From Amycolatopsis lexingtonensis (lineage in GTDB: Bacteria > Actinomycetota > Actinomycetes > Mycobacteriales > Pseudonocardiaceae): a stretch of 64,000 nucleotides of DNA. The translations under genes were made by a program, and so were the position numbers. The DNA lies in contig NZ_JADBEG010000001.1 of the NCBI RefSeq assembly GCF_014873755.1, forward strand, positions 9,646,501 to 9,710,500, read 5' to 3'. Positions 28,580 to 35,009 of this stretch are shown here, in pieces. The stretch's first letter is position 1; every line of letters begins with the position of its first letter. Below the pieces are notes generated by a model, which worked only from the letters and a program-made list of their open reading frames with translations, was not told the origin of the DNA and searched no databases.

Positions 28580-28684
28580 GCGGGTGCCGGTCGTTCTCGC
28601 ATTCCACGGTATCGCCGGAATGGGGTCATGGGGGCTCGCAGCGCGACCGGCGGCAATTCCGATCTCTATTCGGGGAGGCTCCTG

Positions 28685-31600
28685 GTGCGTCGGAAAAAGA
28701 AGGCGATGGCGATCGCGCTGGCGGCCGGAATGGCGTTCCCCGTTCCCGCGGCCGCCGTGGCCGCACCGGCACCGGCCCGGAGCGCGGACGGCCAGTCGGT
28801 CACGCTCATCACCGGCGACCGCGTGCGGGTGCTGCCCGGCGCCCGCGGGCCGGCCGCGGTCGTGGTCGAGCCCGGAGCGGGCCGCGGCGGGATCGGCTTC
28901 CTGCGCGAGACGAGCACCGGCGGGCGTCCGGGCGACGTCACCGTGGTGCCCGCGGACGCGCTGCCGCTGCTGGCCGCCGGGCGGCTCGACCCGCGCCTGT
29001 TCGACGTCTCCGAGCTGCTGCGCCAGCACCTGGCCGACCCCGAGCCCGGCCTGCCGCTGATCATGACCTACGCCGCCGGGGCCCGGCCGGCCGCGGCGGC
29101 CGCCACCGCCGTCCGGGACCTGCCCAGCGTGCGGGGCGCGGCGCTGCGCCAGGACCGGCGGCGCGGCACGGAGTTCTGGACGTGGCTCACCGCTTCGCCG
29201 GGCACGCTGCGGCCCGGGATCGGCAAGGTGTGGCTGGACGGCCTGGCCACCCCGGCCCTCGACGTCAGCGTGCCGCAGATCGGCGCCCCGGCCGCCTGGC
29301 AGGCCGGCTACACCGGCAGCGGCGTCACCGTCGGCCTGCTCGACACCGGCGTCAAGGCCGACCACCCGGACCTGGCGGGCAAGGTCGTGGCCGCCAAGGA
29401 CTTCACCGGGACCCGGCCGGACGCGAGCGACGACCTCGGCCACGGCACGCACGTCGCGGGCATCATCGCCGGCACCGGCGCCGCCTCCGGCGGCCGCTAC
29501 CGCGGGGTGGCGCCGGACGCGAAGCTGATCAGCGGCAAGGTCTGCGTCGCCTACGGCTGCCCGGAGTCGGCGGTGATCGCCGGGATGGAGTGGCTCGCGC
29601 CGCAGGTTCCGGTGGTCAACCTCAGCCTCGGCGGTGACGCGACCGACGGCACGGATCCGTTGTCCCAGGCGGTGAACGCGCTCACCGCGCAGTACGGCAC
29701 GCTCTTCGTCGCTCCTGCGGGCAACGACCGGACGCTCGACCTGCCCGAACCCCTGCCGGTCGTGGCGCCCGCCGCAGCCGACGCCGCGCTCGCGGTCGGC
29801 AGCGTGTCCGCGGCCGACGTCACCAGCCCGTTCTCCAACCGCGGGCCCCGCCTCGGCGACTACGCGGTCAAGCCCGACCTGTCCGCGCCCGGCGAAGGTA
29901 TCGTCTCGGCACGGGCCGCGGGCACCCGCGACGGGGACGCGGCGCCGGTCGACGCCGACTACGCCCGGCTGTCCGGCACGTCGATGGCGGCGCCGCACGT
30001 CGCCGGCGTGGCCGCGCTGCTGCGGCAGGAGCACCCGGACTGGACCGCCGGCCGGCTCAAGCCCACGCTGACGAGCACCGCGCAGCCCACCGGCGACGTC
30101 CCCGGGCAGGGCGCGGGCCGGGTGGACGCGGCCCGCGCGGTCACCCAGCGGGTCACCGCCACCACCGGGAGCCTGAGCTACGGCTTCTTCGCCTGGCCGC
30201 ACACCACGCCGTCGACGAAGACCGTGACCTACCGCAACGACGGGGACGCGGCGGTCACCCTCGCGCTCACCAGTTCCGACGCGCTCGTCACGCCGGCCGC
30301 GCCCACCGTGGTGGTCCCGGCCCACGGCACCGCCGACGTCGGCGTCACCCTCCGGCCCACGGCGGCGGCGACCGGCCCGCACAGCGGCAGGCTGAGCGCC
30401 ACGGCGCCGGGAATCGCGGTGCAGACCGCGTTCGGCGCCGCCCTCGAGCGGGAGAGCTACGACGTCACCGTCCGGCTGATCGACCGGAACGGCGGGCCCG
30501 GCGCGGGGATCGCGAAGCTCGTCAGCACGACGACCGGGGAAGCGTTCGGCGTCCGGCCGATCGGGTCCGACGGCGTGGCCGTGGTCCGGGTGCCCAAGGG
30601 CACCTACGACCTCAACGCCTTCGACGTGGCCGGCCAGGCGGTGACCCTGCTGTCGAAGCCCGGGGTCGCGATCACCGGCGGCACGGCGTTCACCCTGGAC
30701 GCCCGCACGGGCAAGCCGGTGCGCGCGGTGGTCGACCACCCGGACGCGCACCTGCAGTCGGGCGAGCTCGGCCTGGTCTCGGGGAACCCGGCCGGCGACC
30801 GCACCAGCACGCTCGCCTGGCTCGTCCAGCCGGGCAACGAGCTGTTCGCGGCCGGCTCCGGCGACCGGGTCACCGACCACACCTACGCGCTGTTCTTCCG
30901 GGCCACGCTGGCCGCCCGCGAGCCGGGCGCCGATCCGGCCGGGTACGTCTACCAGCTGGCGCTGCTCGAACGTGGCCGCGTACCCGCCGACCCGGTGTTC
31001 CGGGTGCGGGACAAGGACCTCGCCGTGGTCGACGCCCGCTACCGGACCCAGGGCGGCGTGACGGACGGCCTGCGCGTCGACTACGCGTCGTTCGGTTTCC
31101 CGGGCGCCGACAGCGGCGCGTACCAGATCCTGCCGCACACACTGCCCAGCCGGCGGACCGAGTACTACACGCCCGGGCCGGTGAGCTGGCAGCACATCCT
31201 CGCGGTGTACCCGCCGGAACTGACCGACTCGGAGAACCAGTTCTCCTACCGGACCTACCGGCCCGGCGCCCAGCGCGCCGACTGGAACAGCGGCCCGGTC
31301 GGGCCCGCGTTCGGCGCGCCGCGGGACGGCTGGGGCGTGCTGCGCGCCGGCGACCAGCTCACCTACGCGATCCCGATCGTCTCGGGCAGCGACCCGGAGC
31401 AGTACAGCGCGCCACCGGTGGGCCTGTCCGGCACGGCGACGCTGTCGCGCGGCGGGGCGGTGCTGGGTACGACGGCCGACCCGGCGTTCGGCGCGTTCAC
31501 CGTGCCCGACGGAAGCGGCCCGCTCACCCTGCGGTCCGAGGCGACGCGCAGCGTGCCGTGGTCGGTGCTCGGCACCCACGTCGACGTGGCGTGGACGTTC

Positions 31601-31954
31601 CGCGACACCGGCCCGGCCGTCCCGCCGCCGCTCATGGTGGTCCGGGCGCAGGGCGCGCTCGACGACGACAGCCGGGCCCCGGCGGGCCGGCCGTTCCTGC
31701 TCTCCCTGACCGCGCAGCGGCAGCCGGGCGCGGGGGCGTTCCGCCTCGCGGACCTGCGGGTCGAGACCTCCGCCGACGACGGCGTGACGTGGGCGGACGC
31801 GCACGCCGTCCGACTCGGCGACGGCGGCCTGGCCCTGGTGCGCAACCCGGCGGGCGACAGCTTCGTCTCGCTGCGCATCACGGCCCGCGACACCGAAGGG
31901 AACAGCGTCACCCAGACCGTGCTCAGGGCGTACCGGACAACGTCAGCAGGGTGA
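28685..31954 (+). CDS. Large secreted subtilisin-like S8 protease
   Basis: A 1089-residue exported serine protease. Signal peptide (about 1-30, ending AAAVAAP), a propeptide-like region to about 190, then the S8 domain with Asp220 (LLDTGVKADHP), His253 (GHGTHVAG), an oxyanion Asn in APAGNDRT and Ser433 (SGTSMAAPHVAG). The 600-residue C-terminal part is beta-rich with no enzyme motif and may bind substrate or the cell surface; actinomycete 1,000-1,200-residue subtilases share this plan. GTG 28685 has GGGGAGG upstream and a strong promoter about 100 bases away. Its 3' end overlaps the convergent membrane-protein gene by 32 bases. Confidence 0.92.
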   Translation: MRRKKKAMAIALAAGMAFPVPAAAVAAPAPARSADGQSVTLITGDRVRVLPGARGPAAVVVEPGAGRGGIGFLRETSTGGRPGDVTVVPADALPLLAAGRLDPRLFDVSELLRQHLADPEPGLPLIMTYAAGARPAAAAATAVRDLPSVRGAALRQDRRRGTEFWTWLTASPGTLRPGIGKVWLDGLATPALDVSVPQIGAPAAWQAGYTGSGVTVGLLDTGVKADHPDLAGKVVAAKDFTGTRPDASDDLGHGTHVAGIIAGTGAASGGRYRGVAPDAKLISGKVCVAYGCPESAVIAGMEWLAPQVPVVNLSLGGDATDGTDPLSQAVNALTAQYGTLFVAPAGNDRTLDLPEPLPVVAPAAADAALAVGSVSAADVTSPFSNRGPRLGDYAVKPDLSAPGEGIVSARAAGTRDGDAAPVDADYARLSGTSMAAPHVAGVAALLRQEHPDWTAGRLKPTLTSTAQPTGDVPGQGAGRVDAARAVTQRVTATTGSLSYGFFAWPHTTPSTKTVTYRNDGDAAVTLALTSSDALVTPAAPTVVVPAHGTADVGVTLRPTAAATGPHSGRLSATAPGIAVQTAFGAALERESYDVTVRLIDRNGGPGAGIAKLVSTTTGEAFGVRPIGSDGVAVVRVPKGTYDLNAFDVAGQAVTLLSKPGVAITGGTAFTLDARTGKPVRAVVDHPDAHLQSGELGLVSGNPAGDRTSTLAWLVQPGNELFAAGSGDRVTDHTYALFFRATLAAREPGADPAGYVYQLALLERGRVPADPVFRVRDKDLAVVDARYRTQGGVTDGLRVDYASFGFPGADSGAYQILPHTLPSRRTEYYTPGPVSWQHILAVYPPELTDSENQFSYRTYRPGAQRADWNSGPVGPAFGAPRDGWGVLRAGDQLTYAIPIVSGSDPEQYSAPPVGLSGTATLSRGGAVLGTTADPAFGAFTVPDGSGPLTLRSEATRSVPWSVLGTHVDVAWTFRDTGPAVPPPLMVVRAQGALDDDSRAPAGRPFLLSLTAQRQPGAGAFRLADLRVETSADDGVTWADAHAVRLGDGGLALVRNPAGDSFVSLRITARDTEGNSVTQTVLRAYRTTSAG

Positions 31955-32486
31955 CGACGGCGAGCGGGACGGCGAAGGCGGCGGTGGTCAGCAGCCGGAG
32001 GACCCGGCGGTGGGCCAGCCACTCGCCGTCCCAGCCGCCTTCGGTGTCGTAGCGCGTGTTCGCCGTGGTCATCAGCGCCCGGCCGAGCCCGAACCCGGCG
32101 CCCGCGGCCAGCGCGGCGGGCAGCGGGGCGGTGAGCGCCACGGCCACCGCGGCGACGTACGGCAGGCCGCTGGGCAGGTAGGTGCGCACGCCGGTGCCCA
32201 TCTCGAACCCGAACTGCAGCGGGCCGAGGTGCCGGCCCAGCCGGAAGACGGTGTCGGGCACCAGCCGCCGGTTCTCCGGCAGCCGGAACGACCACACGCC
32301 GGTCTCCCGCAGCAGCACGGCCACGAGCGCCGCGGCCACCACGCCCCAGCGGACGGCCACGGGCAAGGGCGCGCGCAGCAGTGAACCCGCCACCACGAGC
32401 ACCAGTGCGGTGAGGGCGCCCCCGCAGACGAGTCCCGCGCAGAACGCCAGTGTCGGTGTGCCCCGCCAGACCGGCGAGCTCAGCAC
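31923..32486 (-). CDS. Membrane protein, last gene of Mau-like locus
   Basis: A 187-residue polytopic membrane protein with about five helices. The middle contains FRLPENRRLVPDTVFRLGRHLGPLQFGFEMGTG-type sequence, a conserved-looking amphipathic loop between helices 2 and 3. No family with known function is recognised. GTG start, weak ribosome-binding site. It is the last of five same-strand genes (34399 to 31923) with almost no spacing, so it probably belongs to the redox locus and may be a membrane component for export or electron transfer. It overlaps the subtilase 3' end on the opposite strand. Confidence 0.7.
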   Translation of the reverse strand: MLSSPVWRGTPTLAFCAGLVCGGALTALVLVVAGSLLRAPLPVAVRWGVVAAALVAVLLRETGVWSFRLPENRRLVPDTVFRLGRHLGPLQFGFEMGTGVRTYLPSGLPYVAAVAVALTAPLPAALAAGAGFGLGRALMTTANTRYDTEGGWDGEWLAHRRVLRLLTTAAFAVPLAVVTLLTLSGTP

Positions 32487-32504
32487 GGAGGCCGAGTTCC
32501 GGCT

Positions 32505-32681
32505 TCAAACGGAGCCGCTGGTGGCGAAGCCGGCGGCCGCGCACAGGACGAGCCACGCGCTCGGCAGCAGCCAGCCCGGCGGCGCGAGCACTGCCGCGCC
32601 GGCCACGCCCATCGCGGCGGCCACCAGCCCGGCGGCGACGGTCAGCGGGTGCCAGCGGCGCCGGTGCAGCGCCGCGGTCAG
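32505..32681 (-). CDS. Possible small two-helix membrane protein
   Basis: Between the MauA-like gene and the last membrane-protein gene, the minus strand keeps an open frame encoding about 58 residues: a basic start (LHRRRWHP) and two hydrophobic helices (VAAGLVAAAMGVAGAAVLA and LLPSAWLVLCAAAGFA). Coding bias looks genuine. No ordinary start codon fits. CTG at 32681 overlaps the preceding stop as CTGA; a GTG at 32795 would need a long overlap. It could also be the displaced N terminus of the next gene. Confidence 0.35.
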   Translation of the reverse strand: MTAALHRRRWHPLTVAAGLVAAAMGVAGAAVLAPPGWLLPSAWLVLCAAAGFATSGSV

Positions 32682-33250
32682 AGCTCGGCCCGGCAGATGG
32701 TCAGGTACGTCTGCCCGGTGCTGCCGTCGCCCCAGAACGTCGAGAACCCGTCCGAACAGCGGTAGACGCGCTTGTCCGGCGTCGTCCACCGCCACGCGTT
32801 CTTGGCGATCGTCTGGCCGCAGGTGTTGGACAGCGGCTGGTGGTCGACCTGCACGCCGTTCTCGTTCCAGGTGCCGTACTTGTGCCAGCCCGCTTCGCAG
32901 TAGGTGCTGCCGCGCCAGTAGCCGCCGAAGCAGGCGGCATAGGTGTTGACGTAGGCGCCGCTGGTGTCGAGCAGCTCCGGGTAGCCGGTGGCGTAGGCGT
33001 CGTGGCAGTCGTTGCGGTCCCAGCCCTGCATGCCGTTCGGGCCGACTTCGGCGTTCGCCCGCCGCAGGCGCGACAGGCCGGACCAGTCGAGCGCGGTCGC
33101 GCCGATCGTCAGCACGCCGAGCGCCAGCGCCCGCAGGAACGTCCGGCGGGTCCCGGCCCCGGGCAGCTTCGTACCCGCGCGCGTGGGCACGGCTTCCGGG
33201 CCGGGCCGGTCAAGCTCCGGAATCCGCGCCAGCTCGAGTGCCACCGACAT
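32678..33250 (-). CDS. TAT-exported Cys/Trp-rich protein, MauA-like
   Basis: A 190-residue secreted protein. A twin-arginine signal (TRRTFLRALALG, 34-45) is followed by a probable cleavage near ANA-EV (67). The mature part has six cysteines (82, 107, 118, 144, 165, 186) and seven tryptophans (77-173). Its size, TAT-like leader, and a C-terminal pattern of Trp, Gly, TY and Cys (TFWGDG, TYLTIC) resemble the light chain of methylamine dehydrogenase (MauA), whose two Trp residues form the TTQ cofactor. MauA has twelve cysteines, so any relation is distant. Neighbouring MauD-like and MauE-like genes support it. It overlaps the MauD-like gene by 41 bases. Confidence 0.6.
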   Translation of the reverse strand: MSVALELARIPELDRPGPEAVPTRAGTKLPGAGTRRTFLRALALGVLTIGATALDWSGLSRLRRANAEVGPNGMQGWDRNDCHDAYATGYPELLDTSGAYVNTYAACFGGYWRGSTYCEAGWHKYGTWNENGVQVDHQPLSNTCGQTIAKNAWRWTTPDKRVYRCSDGFSTFWGDGSTGQTYLTICRAEL

Positions 33251-33725
33251 CGCCTCCTGCCTTCGGACCGGCCCAGCCGGCCAGGGTGGTGTCCACGTCG
33301 CCGGCGCGGACGGGGAGCTGGAGCCGCCGGACGCGGCCGGTGCCGTCGGTCAGCATCAGCACCGGCGGCGCGAGGTGCGAGATCGAACGCCACGCCTCGG
33401 CGTCGGAGAGCACTGGCAGGCCGCGGGCCAGGCCCTGCCACACCGACGCCGGTTCGTGGGTCAGCAGGGCCGTGCCGGCGTCGAGCTCGGCCAGCCGGTC
33501 GACCACGGTCAGGCAGAGCGGGCAGCCGGAGTCGACGGCCGCCACGACCCGGCTCGCGAACCGCGGCCCGAGGTCGACGTCCGGCGGCGCGGCCACGAAG
33601 CCGTCGGACGTCCGGGTGACGATCCCGCGCAGCAGCCGCACCTCGCGCAGCACCGCCGCGAGGCCGAAGAAGAGCACGGCGATCGCCGCCCAGGTGATCA
33701 GCAGGACCGCGGTCGAGGTCGTCAT
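33210..33725 (-). CDS. MauD-like membrane-anchored thiol-disulfide protein
   Basis: A 171-residue protein with an N-terminal anchor helix (about 6-27) and a thioredoxin-like domain outside the membrane carrying a CPLC active site (Cys68, Cys71; DSGCPLCLTVVDRL). The arrangement matches MauD, a disulfide-handling protein needed for MauA maturation. A late strand (PVLMLTDGTGRVRRLQL) and Pro loop complete the fold. The start ATG overlaps the preceding gene's stop (ATGA), and its 3' end overlaps the MauA-like gene. It probably forms or isomerises disulfides in the exported Cys-rich partner. Confidence 0.75.
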   Translation of the reverse strand: MTTSTAVLLITWAAIAVLFFGLAAVLREVRLLRGIVTRTSDGFVAAPPDVDLGPRFASRVVAAVDSGCPLCLTVVDRLAELDAGTALLTHEPASVWQGLARGLPVLSDAEAWRSISHLAPPVLMLTDGTGRVRRLQLPVRAGDVDTTLAGWAGPKAGGDVGGTRAGADSGA

Positions 33726-34399
33726 CGGCGCTGCCACCCGACGTCGATTTCGTCGAGCCAGTCGAGCCGCTCCCGGTCGGTCGTCGCCGTCGAGTCCGCG
33801 AGGTGGACCTCGGCCACGCCGGCCGGGCAGCCCAGCACGAACGACCGGGTGTTCGTCTGCCACACCTCGCCGTGCTTCGTGCGCGCGCCCGCGTGCGCCG
33901 GGAGCAGCGCGGCGGCCTCGCGCGGAGCCGGGATGGACAGCGAGCCGTGGTCGCGGACCACGACGACCAGGTGTTCGCCGGCCGGGTCGAGCAGGGTGGC
34001 CGGCCGGGGCGTGACGACCATGCCGTCGACGCGGTCCTCGATGTTCAGGGAGCCGAACAGGCCGAGCACGCGGTCGCGGTGCGGCGCCGGGCCGGCGTAC
34101 ACCGTCATCAGCTCGTGGTAGTCGCCGAGCAGGGTGGCCACGGACGACTGCCCGTCGGCCGCCTCGGCCACGACGACCTCCCGGCCGTGCACGAGCAGGC
34201 GTTCGCGGGTGCGGGCCGGCGCGACGCGGGTGCAGGCGAAGTCGTGGTAGCCGCGCGACCCGATCTGGAAGCCGGTGCCGTACGAGCCGCCGACGAAGCG
34301 GATGCCGGCGACCACGTGGGAAACCGGAGCTCGCGCGGAAAGGCCGACCGTCACGCGGCCGCCGCCCGGCGCCGTCAACCGCAGTGTCTGGTTCCCCAT
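33722..34399 (-). CDS. Conserved-looking protein of unknown function in Mau-like locus
   Basis: A 225-residue soluble protein with no signal peptide or membrane helix. It is strand-rich, with repeated blocks ending in Arg/His-rich loops (GYHDFACTRVAPARTRERL, HLVVVVRDHGSLSIP, RSFVLGCPAGVAEV). I do not recognise a family. ATG follows GGAGG (minus strand, about 34404-34408). It is first in the five-gene minus-strand set and overlaps the MauD-like gene by 4 bases, so it is translated with the redox genes. It is divergent from the MauE-like gene. A cytoplasmic maturation or regulatory role is only a guess. Confidence 0.65.
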   Translation of the reverse strand: MGNQTLRLTAPGGGRVTVGLSARAPVSHVVAGIRFVGGSYGTGFQIGSRGYHDFACTRVAPARTRERLLVHGREVVVAEAADGQSSVATLLGDYHELMTVYAGPAPHRDRVLGLFGSLNIEDRVDGMVVTPRPATLLDPAGEHLVVVVRDHGSLSIPAPREAAALLPAHAGARTKHGEVWQTNTRSFVLGCPAGVAEVHLADSTATTDRERLDWLDEIDVGWQRR

Positions 34400-34538
34400 C
34401 GGACCTCCGCTTCGGCGGGTATTCCGTCTCGTGAGACTAACCGACGATTTCGGCCGGGGTCACGATTGTTCGGCCAACGGGCGGTGCGGCTGCCGCCAAA
34501 TGGCTACGGCAATTTTGTCAGCGAATACCGTGGGACCC

Positions 34539-35009
34539 GTGAGCATTTTCTGGTCGGCGGTCATGACCGTTTTGTCCGCGGCCGGCGCGATTTTTCTGCT
34601 CGCGGCCGGATTCGGGCACGTCGTGCGTCACCGTGAACACCGCGCGGTGCTGCGGGCGCACCGCCTGCTGCCCCCGGTGTTCGCCCCGCTGACGACGGGC
34701 GCGGAGGTCCTGATCGGCACCGCCGTGCTGCTGGCTCTGCTCGCGGCCCCGGCGGCCGCCGCACCCGCCCTGCTCGCGCAGGCCGGGCTCTACACCGCCT
34801 TCGCCGGGTACGCGGGCGTGCTGCGCGTGCGACGGCCGGGCGTGCCGTGCGGCTGCTTCGGCAGCGAGGTCGTGTCCTGGGCCGTGGTGGCGAGAGCGGC
34901 CGTGCTCGCCGCCGCCGGTGCCGCCTGCGCGGCCCTCGGGGCGGCGAGCCCGCTGTGCGTGGCGGCCGGCGCGGTCCTCGCCATGGCGGCCCACCTGCTC
35001 CGCCGCTGA
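34539..35009 (+). CDS. MauE/DoxX-like redox-associated membrane protein
   Basis: A 156-residue membrane protein with four helices and the MauE signature VPCGCFG (Cys104, Cys106) in a loop before the third helix. MauE supports MauD in disulfide formation during methylamine dehydrogenase maturation; related proteins serve other exported redox proteins. The GTG at 34539 lies 7 bases after TACCGT, so it may be leaderless; ATG 34500 is an alternative start. It is divergent from the MauD/MauA-like operon across about 140 bases and convergent with the XRE regulator gene. Confidence 0.78.
   Translation: MSIFWSAVMTVLSAAGAIFLLAAGFGHVVRHREHRAVLRAHRLLPPVFAPLTTGAEVLIGTAVLLALLAAPAAAAPALLAQAGLYTAFAGYAGVLRVRRPGVPCGCFGSEVVSWAVVARAAVLAAAGAACAALGAASPLCVAAGAVLAMAAHLLRR

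Follow-up and report, generated by a model that had tools for sequence, protein, structure and literature searches.

Members of the DsbD/CcdA family typically have two conserved membrane cysteines, and the tryptophan tryptophylquinone (TTQ) of methylamine dehydrogenase involves two distant Trp residues. The selenoproteins known so far have mostly thioredoxin-like folds and belong predominantly to anaerobic metabolism, according to a review of 2026 (PMC13188914). Here we describe a locus of Amycolatopsis lexingtonensis (genome size 10.7 Mb, assembly GCF_014873755.1) that lies in a stretch of 64,000 nucleotides, hereafter the window (contig NZ_JADBEG010000001.1, positions 9,646,501 to 9,710,500). 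A thioredoxin-like protein, a Cys-rich protein exported by the twin-arginine translocation (TAT) pathway and a membrane protein that very probably contains selenocysteine (Sec) appear to make up an undescribed redox system, together with a soluble protein, U225, and a MauE-family membrane protein. We favour, with some reserve, the reading that the locus is a Sec-dependent extracytoplasmic thiol redox cassette in which a DsbD/CcdA-like relay serves the exported protein.

The first-pass annotation of the window had placed two genes at the end of the minus-strand run, one for a "two-helix protein" (32795-32505) and one for a "membrane protein" (32486-31923), but these are a single frame interrupted by a TGA codon at 32505-32507. 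Of the homologous genes, 57 were read (the window and 55 loci, L058 counted twice), and each of them has TGA at this place of the alignment; the site is never TAA, TAG or any other codon and the protein context is conserved on both sides, the joined frame reading ..GFATSGST-TGA-SRNSA..LSSPVWRG... After the duplicates L099 and L100 were dropped, 55 genes remained for the later counts. The third codon after the TGA is AAC in 55/55, the fourth encodes Ser by TCG, TCA, TCC or AGC and the fifth Ala by GCC, GCG, GCA or GCT. Since the residues right after the TGA are invariant or nearly so and their codons vary synonymously, translation seems to pass the TGA. In an alignment of 47 sequences (A7) the Sec position is the sole invariant redox site, no other Cys is conserved, and a Cys homologue at this position was found in none of the 57 genes of the cassette family.

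A hairpin of the sequence CUCGCC-GGUCU-GGCGAG starts 26 nt past the UGA, with its loop 32 nt from the UGA, and fits the rules for bacterial Sec insertion sequences (bSECIS) given in section 5 of PMC13188914. The same hairpin was predicted unprompted in the RNAalifold consensus. A 6-bp stem at this fixed place is present in 52 of 54 genes, compared to 5.2 expected and a maximum of 13 in 2000 joint synonymous shuffles; the remaining two genes (L104 and L112) have a 5-bp stem, and in L058b, which was left out for a one-codon shift, the corresponding hairpin lies 3 nt further upstream. The rare Arg codon CGA lies on the 3' arm in 37/55 genes, compared to 5.2% elsewhere in these genes. Compensatory exchange of U-A for G-C was also seen: where Ala GCG stands in place of Ser TCG, Arg is encoded by CGC or CGT and the pair is kept; both sides were altered in 6 cells, all at one of the six pairs. 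Some observations speak against a bSECIS element: the folding energies of the individual genes are nothing unusual (z averages -1.0, with 5/55 genes in the lowest 5%, and is -0.37 for the window), the genes carrying the hairpin are related and not independent, and a search of Rfam returned matches at chance level only.

The machinery for Sec insertion was found along with the cassette. Of 39 genomes that encode the TAT protein, 38 have a SelA (TIGR00474) scoring over the cut-off, compared to 18 of 40 genomes taken for comparison (Fisher p=1.4e-7); the latter were not drawn at random, and one of them (G004) has a weak, leader-only match to the TAT protein. In the exception among the 39, G920, which is 80% complete, a fragment of SelA lies at the edge of a contig. 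Clustering of the flanking genes brought out neighbours of the cassette that read as SelA and SelB, and at least one of SelA, SelB and SelD (Actinoplanes queries) was detected in the cassette flank of 21/58 sources, L099 being a duplicate of L050. ARAGORN found tRNA-Sec in 14 of the 19 sel-flanked loci scanned. In A. lexingtonensis the genes for SelA, SelB, SelD and tRNA-Sec are grouped together (L130), SelB and SelD being identified by tblastn only. In the same genome, a frame for formate dehydrogenase is interrupted by one TGA (G000:C1:434318-437317) and is a likely second selenoprotein. According to PMC4048454, A. mediterranei has tRNA-Sec and a formate dehydrogenase in which UGA encodes Sec. 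A. vancoresmycina DSM 44592 is listed in PMC5029168 as having SelD but no known selenoproteins; another A. vancoresmycina strain carries the cassette (L032).

Using a profile of the whole selenoprotein, matches were obtained in 20/296 genomes of the phylum, and 18 of the 19 others came from outside the class. Fourteen of these 19 genomes have an in-frame TGA, mostly in the context WSP-TGA-G-x-SM, two have TGC (L162 and L172) and three were unreadable: G466 is masked, G486 runs into a contig end and G361 was not recovered. SelA is present in 14/14 TGA genomes and absent from both Cys genomes, which are 99-100% complete. Comparison of the cassette family with the distant subfamily by hhalign gave a probability of 99.3 and an E-value of 1.3e-20, with Sec aligned on Cys. 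In 13 distant TGA genes the loop of the best bSECIS-like hairpin begins 29-33 nt past the UGA; of the Cys genes, L172 has no hairpin, and in L162 the stem differs and its loop, of 9 nt, lies at 36 nt (neither set with a shuffle control).

The alternative that the TGA is a true stop, separating two membrane proteins that are coupled in translation and belong to a conserved complex, finds some footing in the ordinary folding energies, in the overlap of other cassette genes and in a GTG usable as start. This GTG appears only at codon 7 after the TGA, in 31/55 genes; it is missing in the other 24/55, and conservation sets in ahead of it, with the residues of codons 1 and 3-5. A true stop is further opposed by the lack of TAA or TAG in all 57 genes, by the co-occurrence with SelA and by the Cys at the aligned place in genomes without SelA. 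We therefore regard it as highly improbable; the product is, judged from the sequences, very probably a membrane selenoprotein.

The distant genes come with partners of their own. L159-L177 represent a second subfamily of membrane selenoproteins (mostly WSP-U-G-x-SM) in other actinobacterial classes, accompanied by MauE and a MauD-like thioredoxin. Four of the five thioredoxins scanned beside distant selenoproteins match MauD (TIGR02661; best E=1.7e-27, 96 bits), all below the cut-off of 188.6, and all four MauE genes scanned, two of them from distant cassettes, match PF07291. Between the thioredoxin and the membrane protein, four loci leave space for another gene (L169, L170, L172 and L174), and its product in each is rich in Cys, with at least 10 in the open frame, and has a TAT-like leader. 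In Nonomuraea gerenzanensis DNA without annotated features in the collection (L178), the cassette is joined, within 14 kb, by a variant TGA set and by a second set of U225, thioredoxin and TAT genes that extends as far as the stretch does. The variant set contains TA-TGA-GMN and its own Cys-rich TAT-like protein; it is a single sequence (E=6.8e-4), and L178 was the only match among 72,556 records of a plasmid collection.

The cassette is widely conserved. The genes for U225, the thioredoxin, the TAT protein and the membrane protein occur together in 54/57 related loci, two of which duplicate others; the three exceptions are L113, truncated where its contig ends, L125, a lone TAT gene, and L123, a false match. 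This conservation shows that the arrangement is not due to chance. The gene order is mostly U225, thioredoxin, TAT protein, membrane protein, with rearrangements in L108 and in the second of the two copies in L058. MauE was found within the fetched flanks of 22/30 named loci and 13/27 others, and its position varies: it may lie between U225 and the thioredoxin or after the membrane gene. By the refuting condition that the first-pass annotation had set, homologues usually retain the thioredoxin gene, and its proposal that an exported Cys-rich protein has its own set of MauD/MauE-like partners is supported across genera. The 30 loci of the named-genome scan come from Amycolatopsis, Actinokineospora, Allokutzneria, Crossiella, Saccharothrix, Actinoplanes, Micromonospora, Asanoa, Streptomyces coffeae, a Micromonosporaceae isolate, a Mobilicoccus metagenome-assembled genome and Phytoactinopolyspora. 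The carrier genera are mostly aerobic soil organisms. The nearest named TAT protein, from A. eburnea, is 93% identical. Searches with the TAT protein gave matches at E<=0.001 in 22/200 genomes of its own family, one of which (L021) later proved false; profile searches gave matches in 21/397 genomes at the level of the order (E<=0.001), nine of them weak and leader-sized, and in 18/250 genomes of a second family (E<=1e-6). In a phylum sample of 396 genomes, with 8 candidates scored per genome, the TAT profile matched in A. lexingtonensis only.

Some loci show additional features. A gene beside the cassette reads by eye as an extracytoplasmic function sigma factor in L050, L051, L052, L054 and L058. 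The lone TAT homologue of L125 (6224-6676) is without other cassette genes, and its genome, G034, also has a full cassette (L003). In Actinokineospora inagensis (L049, 8543-11800) the TAT and selenoprotein genes are about 3 kb apart, unlike in other loci of the usual order. A further small thioredoxin-like stretch follows the selenoprotein gene in L117 (8451-8756, with CPHC) and L118 (8303-8662).

The features of the locus in the window are compiled in Table 1. U225, the CPLC thioredoxin and the TAT protein were all recovered at the places that had been assigned to them on the minus strand, and so was the divergent MauE-like gene, whose match to PF07291 (60.6 bits) is over the curated cut-off of 27. 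The start of the selenoprotein gene is uncertain: in the window it is a CTG overlapping the stop of the TAT gene (CTGA), and relatives usually have ATG, GTG or TTG near the homologous place. Other cassette genes in the window overlap as well. The U225, TAT and membrane proteins of the window matched no Pfam family; among relatives, E-values were weak and scattered (best 0.0094 for the TAT protein, 0.01 for U225 and 0.0033 for the membrane protein), with no convincing family among 30 members of U225. The thioredoxin of the window gave nothing at E<=1 with MauD (TIGR02661). An S8 peptidase gene (28628-31954, plus strand) converges on the cassette and is found in the flank of 20/23 named Pseudonocardiaceae loci.

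Table 1 Features of the cassette in the window
Feature	Position	Strand	Remarks
Membrane selenoprotein (proposed)	31923..32681	-	251 sense codons and in-frame TGA (= Sec); stop TGA 31923-31925
Proposed Sec codon TGA	32505..32507	-	Context ..FATSGSV-U-SRNSASVLSSPVWRG..; own-genome match shows "1 TGA" inside
bSECIS-like hairpin CUCGCC-GGUCU-GGCGGG	32462..32478	-	UGA to apical loop, 32 nt
TAT-exported Cys/Trp-rich protein	32678..33250	-	Alignment of 29 sequences
Membrane-anchored thioredoxin-like CPLC protein (TRX), MauD-like	33210..33725	-	Invariant C68 and C71
U225, soluble, no recognised signal, family without assigned function	33722..34399	-	Conserved cassette gene
MauE-family membrane protein, VPCGCFG motif	34500..35009	+	PF07291 E=2.5e-16; alternative start 34539

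The exported protein has, as described before, six Cys and seven Trp in its mature part, which comprises 123 residues. The twin Arg is invariant (29/29), as are C106, C117, C143, N150-x-W152-x-W154 and R163-C164-x-D166 in the 29 sequences; the structure model is poor, with a predicted local distance difference test (pLDDT) score of 48. The first-pass annotation had taken it for a secreted protein not yet described, TTQ-like or Trp-crosslinked and served by a maturation set of its own, a view that agrees with the TAT leader, the richness in Cys and Trp, the MauE/MauD-like neighbours and the strict conservation of N-x-W-x-W. However, a relationship to the methylamine dehydrogenase light chain (PF02975) was not borne out: none of the 29 members matched this family at E<=5, the gene was absent from the own-genome matches at E<=10, and a search of 296 actinobacterial genomes with PF02975 gave no match above the cut-off and a single weak one below it. 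Moreover, the four distant Cys-rich exported proteins have a single invariant Trp in common and lack W-x-W, and only their leader aligns with the TAT protein of the window; three of the four match TIGR02659 weakly, by the TAT leader only (best E=0.01). A TTQ-like or crosslinked protein is therefore improbable.

The AlphaFold2 model of the selenoprotein (pLDDT 93.6, predicted template modelling score 0.91) has an N-terminal helix followed by six spans, two of which are broken (38-67 and 143-184), and Sec59 is located at the first break. Of four distant homologues scanned, three match PF13386 weakly, one of them just over the cut-off (25.0 versus 24.9 bits), two match PF02683 below the cut-off, and one matches DsbD (PRK00293) at 4.2e-7, also below the cut-off. 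The broken helices and these matches suggest a DsbD/CcdA-like conduit. On the other side of the balance, the selenoprotein of the window matches no Pfam family at E<=10, PF02683 and PF13386 included, the fold search was weak (5vkv, TM-scores 0.33/0.36, E 0.77), and the second membrane cysteine typical of DsbD/CcdA is not present in the selenoprotein alignment. Because of the weak fold search and the missing cysteine, we did not file the selenoprotein as a member of DsbD/CcdA.

The thioredoxin and MauE partners, together with the recurring, apparently unrelated Cys-rich exported proteins, indicate a dedicated thiol relay. The likeliest function would be that of a thiol-selenol relay, similar to DsbD/CcdA, by which disulfides of the exported protein are reduced or reshuffled; its direction and its substrate are what we infer. 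The membrane selenoprotein would work like DsbD/CcdA: its single Sec, at the break of the broken transmembrane helix, would be supplied with electrons by a thiol donor in the cytosol, perhaps with help from U225, and the selenoprotein would hand them to the membrane-anchored MauD-like CPLC thioredoxin, which in turn would reduce or isomerise disulfides of the TAT-exported Cys/Trp-rich protein. MauE, with its CGC, may be a second membrane thiol partner, perhaps balancing oxidation and reduction. Alternatively, the selenoprotein could be real and its Sec no thiol relay but a ligand to a metal, an Fe-S cluster or a small selenophilic or thiophilic compound, in a membrane electron-transfer or uptake complex with the exported protein as binding subunit. 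The fold matches are within noise, and the two Cys of the thioredoxin partner, invariant in 33/33 sequences, and the MauE partners favour thiol chemistry, so that ligand binding seems unlikely.

Searches for an earlier description of the selenoprotein were negative. With NCBIfam release 20 (June 2026) as model library, nothing scored above cut-off for five members of the cassette family or four distant homologues. Table 1 of PMC13188914 (2026), which covers 119 prokaryotic families and includes rows attributed to Haft and Tolstoy 2025, has no row with the motif or description of the selenoprotein, and literature searches turned up no such membrane selenoprotein family. The authors of deep-Sep note (PMC12013277) that their method may miss selenoproteins without Cys homologues; since none were seen within the cassette family, this selenoprotein may have been overlooked. 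More tentatively than for the locus itself, we propose a phylum-wide, undescribed actinobacterial system in which a single-Sec membrane protein, with the subfamilies SGS-x-U-S-x-NSA, P-U-G-x-SM and possibly TA-U-GMN (one record), might drive the transfer of electrons or thiols across the membrane; the recipients would be MauD-like thioredoxins, which build the Cys-rich exported proteins dedicated to the system. It would use one selenol where DsbD/CcdA transporters use two cysteines. If true, this would add an integral-membrane family to the selenoprotein catalogue, offer a possible reason why some actinobacteria retain the Sec machinery, and open to experiment the question of how electrons could cross a membrane by way of one selenol.

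Among described selenoproteins, TsoB (NF045694), a rhodanese/DsbD fusion-like protein, also has Sec in a DsbD-like protein, but going by its row in Table 1 of PMC13188914 it contains two Sec (UxxxxU) and, by name, a rhodanese part; NF045694 is the model given for it there, and the selenoprotein of the window matched no model of NCBIfam. The Sec-containing formate dehydrogenase would use the same SelA, SelB, SelD and tRNA-Sec but belongs to a separate family of soluble enzymes (TIGR01553). With the mau system the cassette shares MauE (PF07291) and a MauD-like thioredoxin beside a TAT-exported Cys-rich protein; it differs in that the exported protein is not a PF02975 member and in the additional membrane selenoprotein and U225. 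Compared to the methylamine dehydrogenase light chain, the mature exported protein has 6 Cys instead of twelve (the figure of the first-pass annotation), and its invariant W-x-W pair is unlike the separated Trp residues of TTQ. Like DsbD/CcdA (PF02683, PF13386, NF001419), the selenoprotein spans the membrane with several helices, one of them broken and holding the redox residue, and adjoins a membrane-anchored thioredoxin, but it has Sec in place of Cys, one redox residue instead of two, and an extra N-terminal helix.

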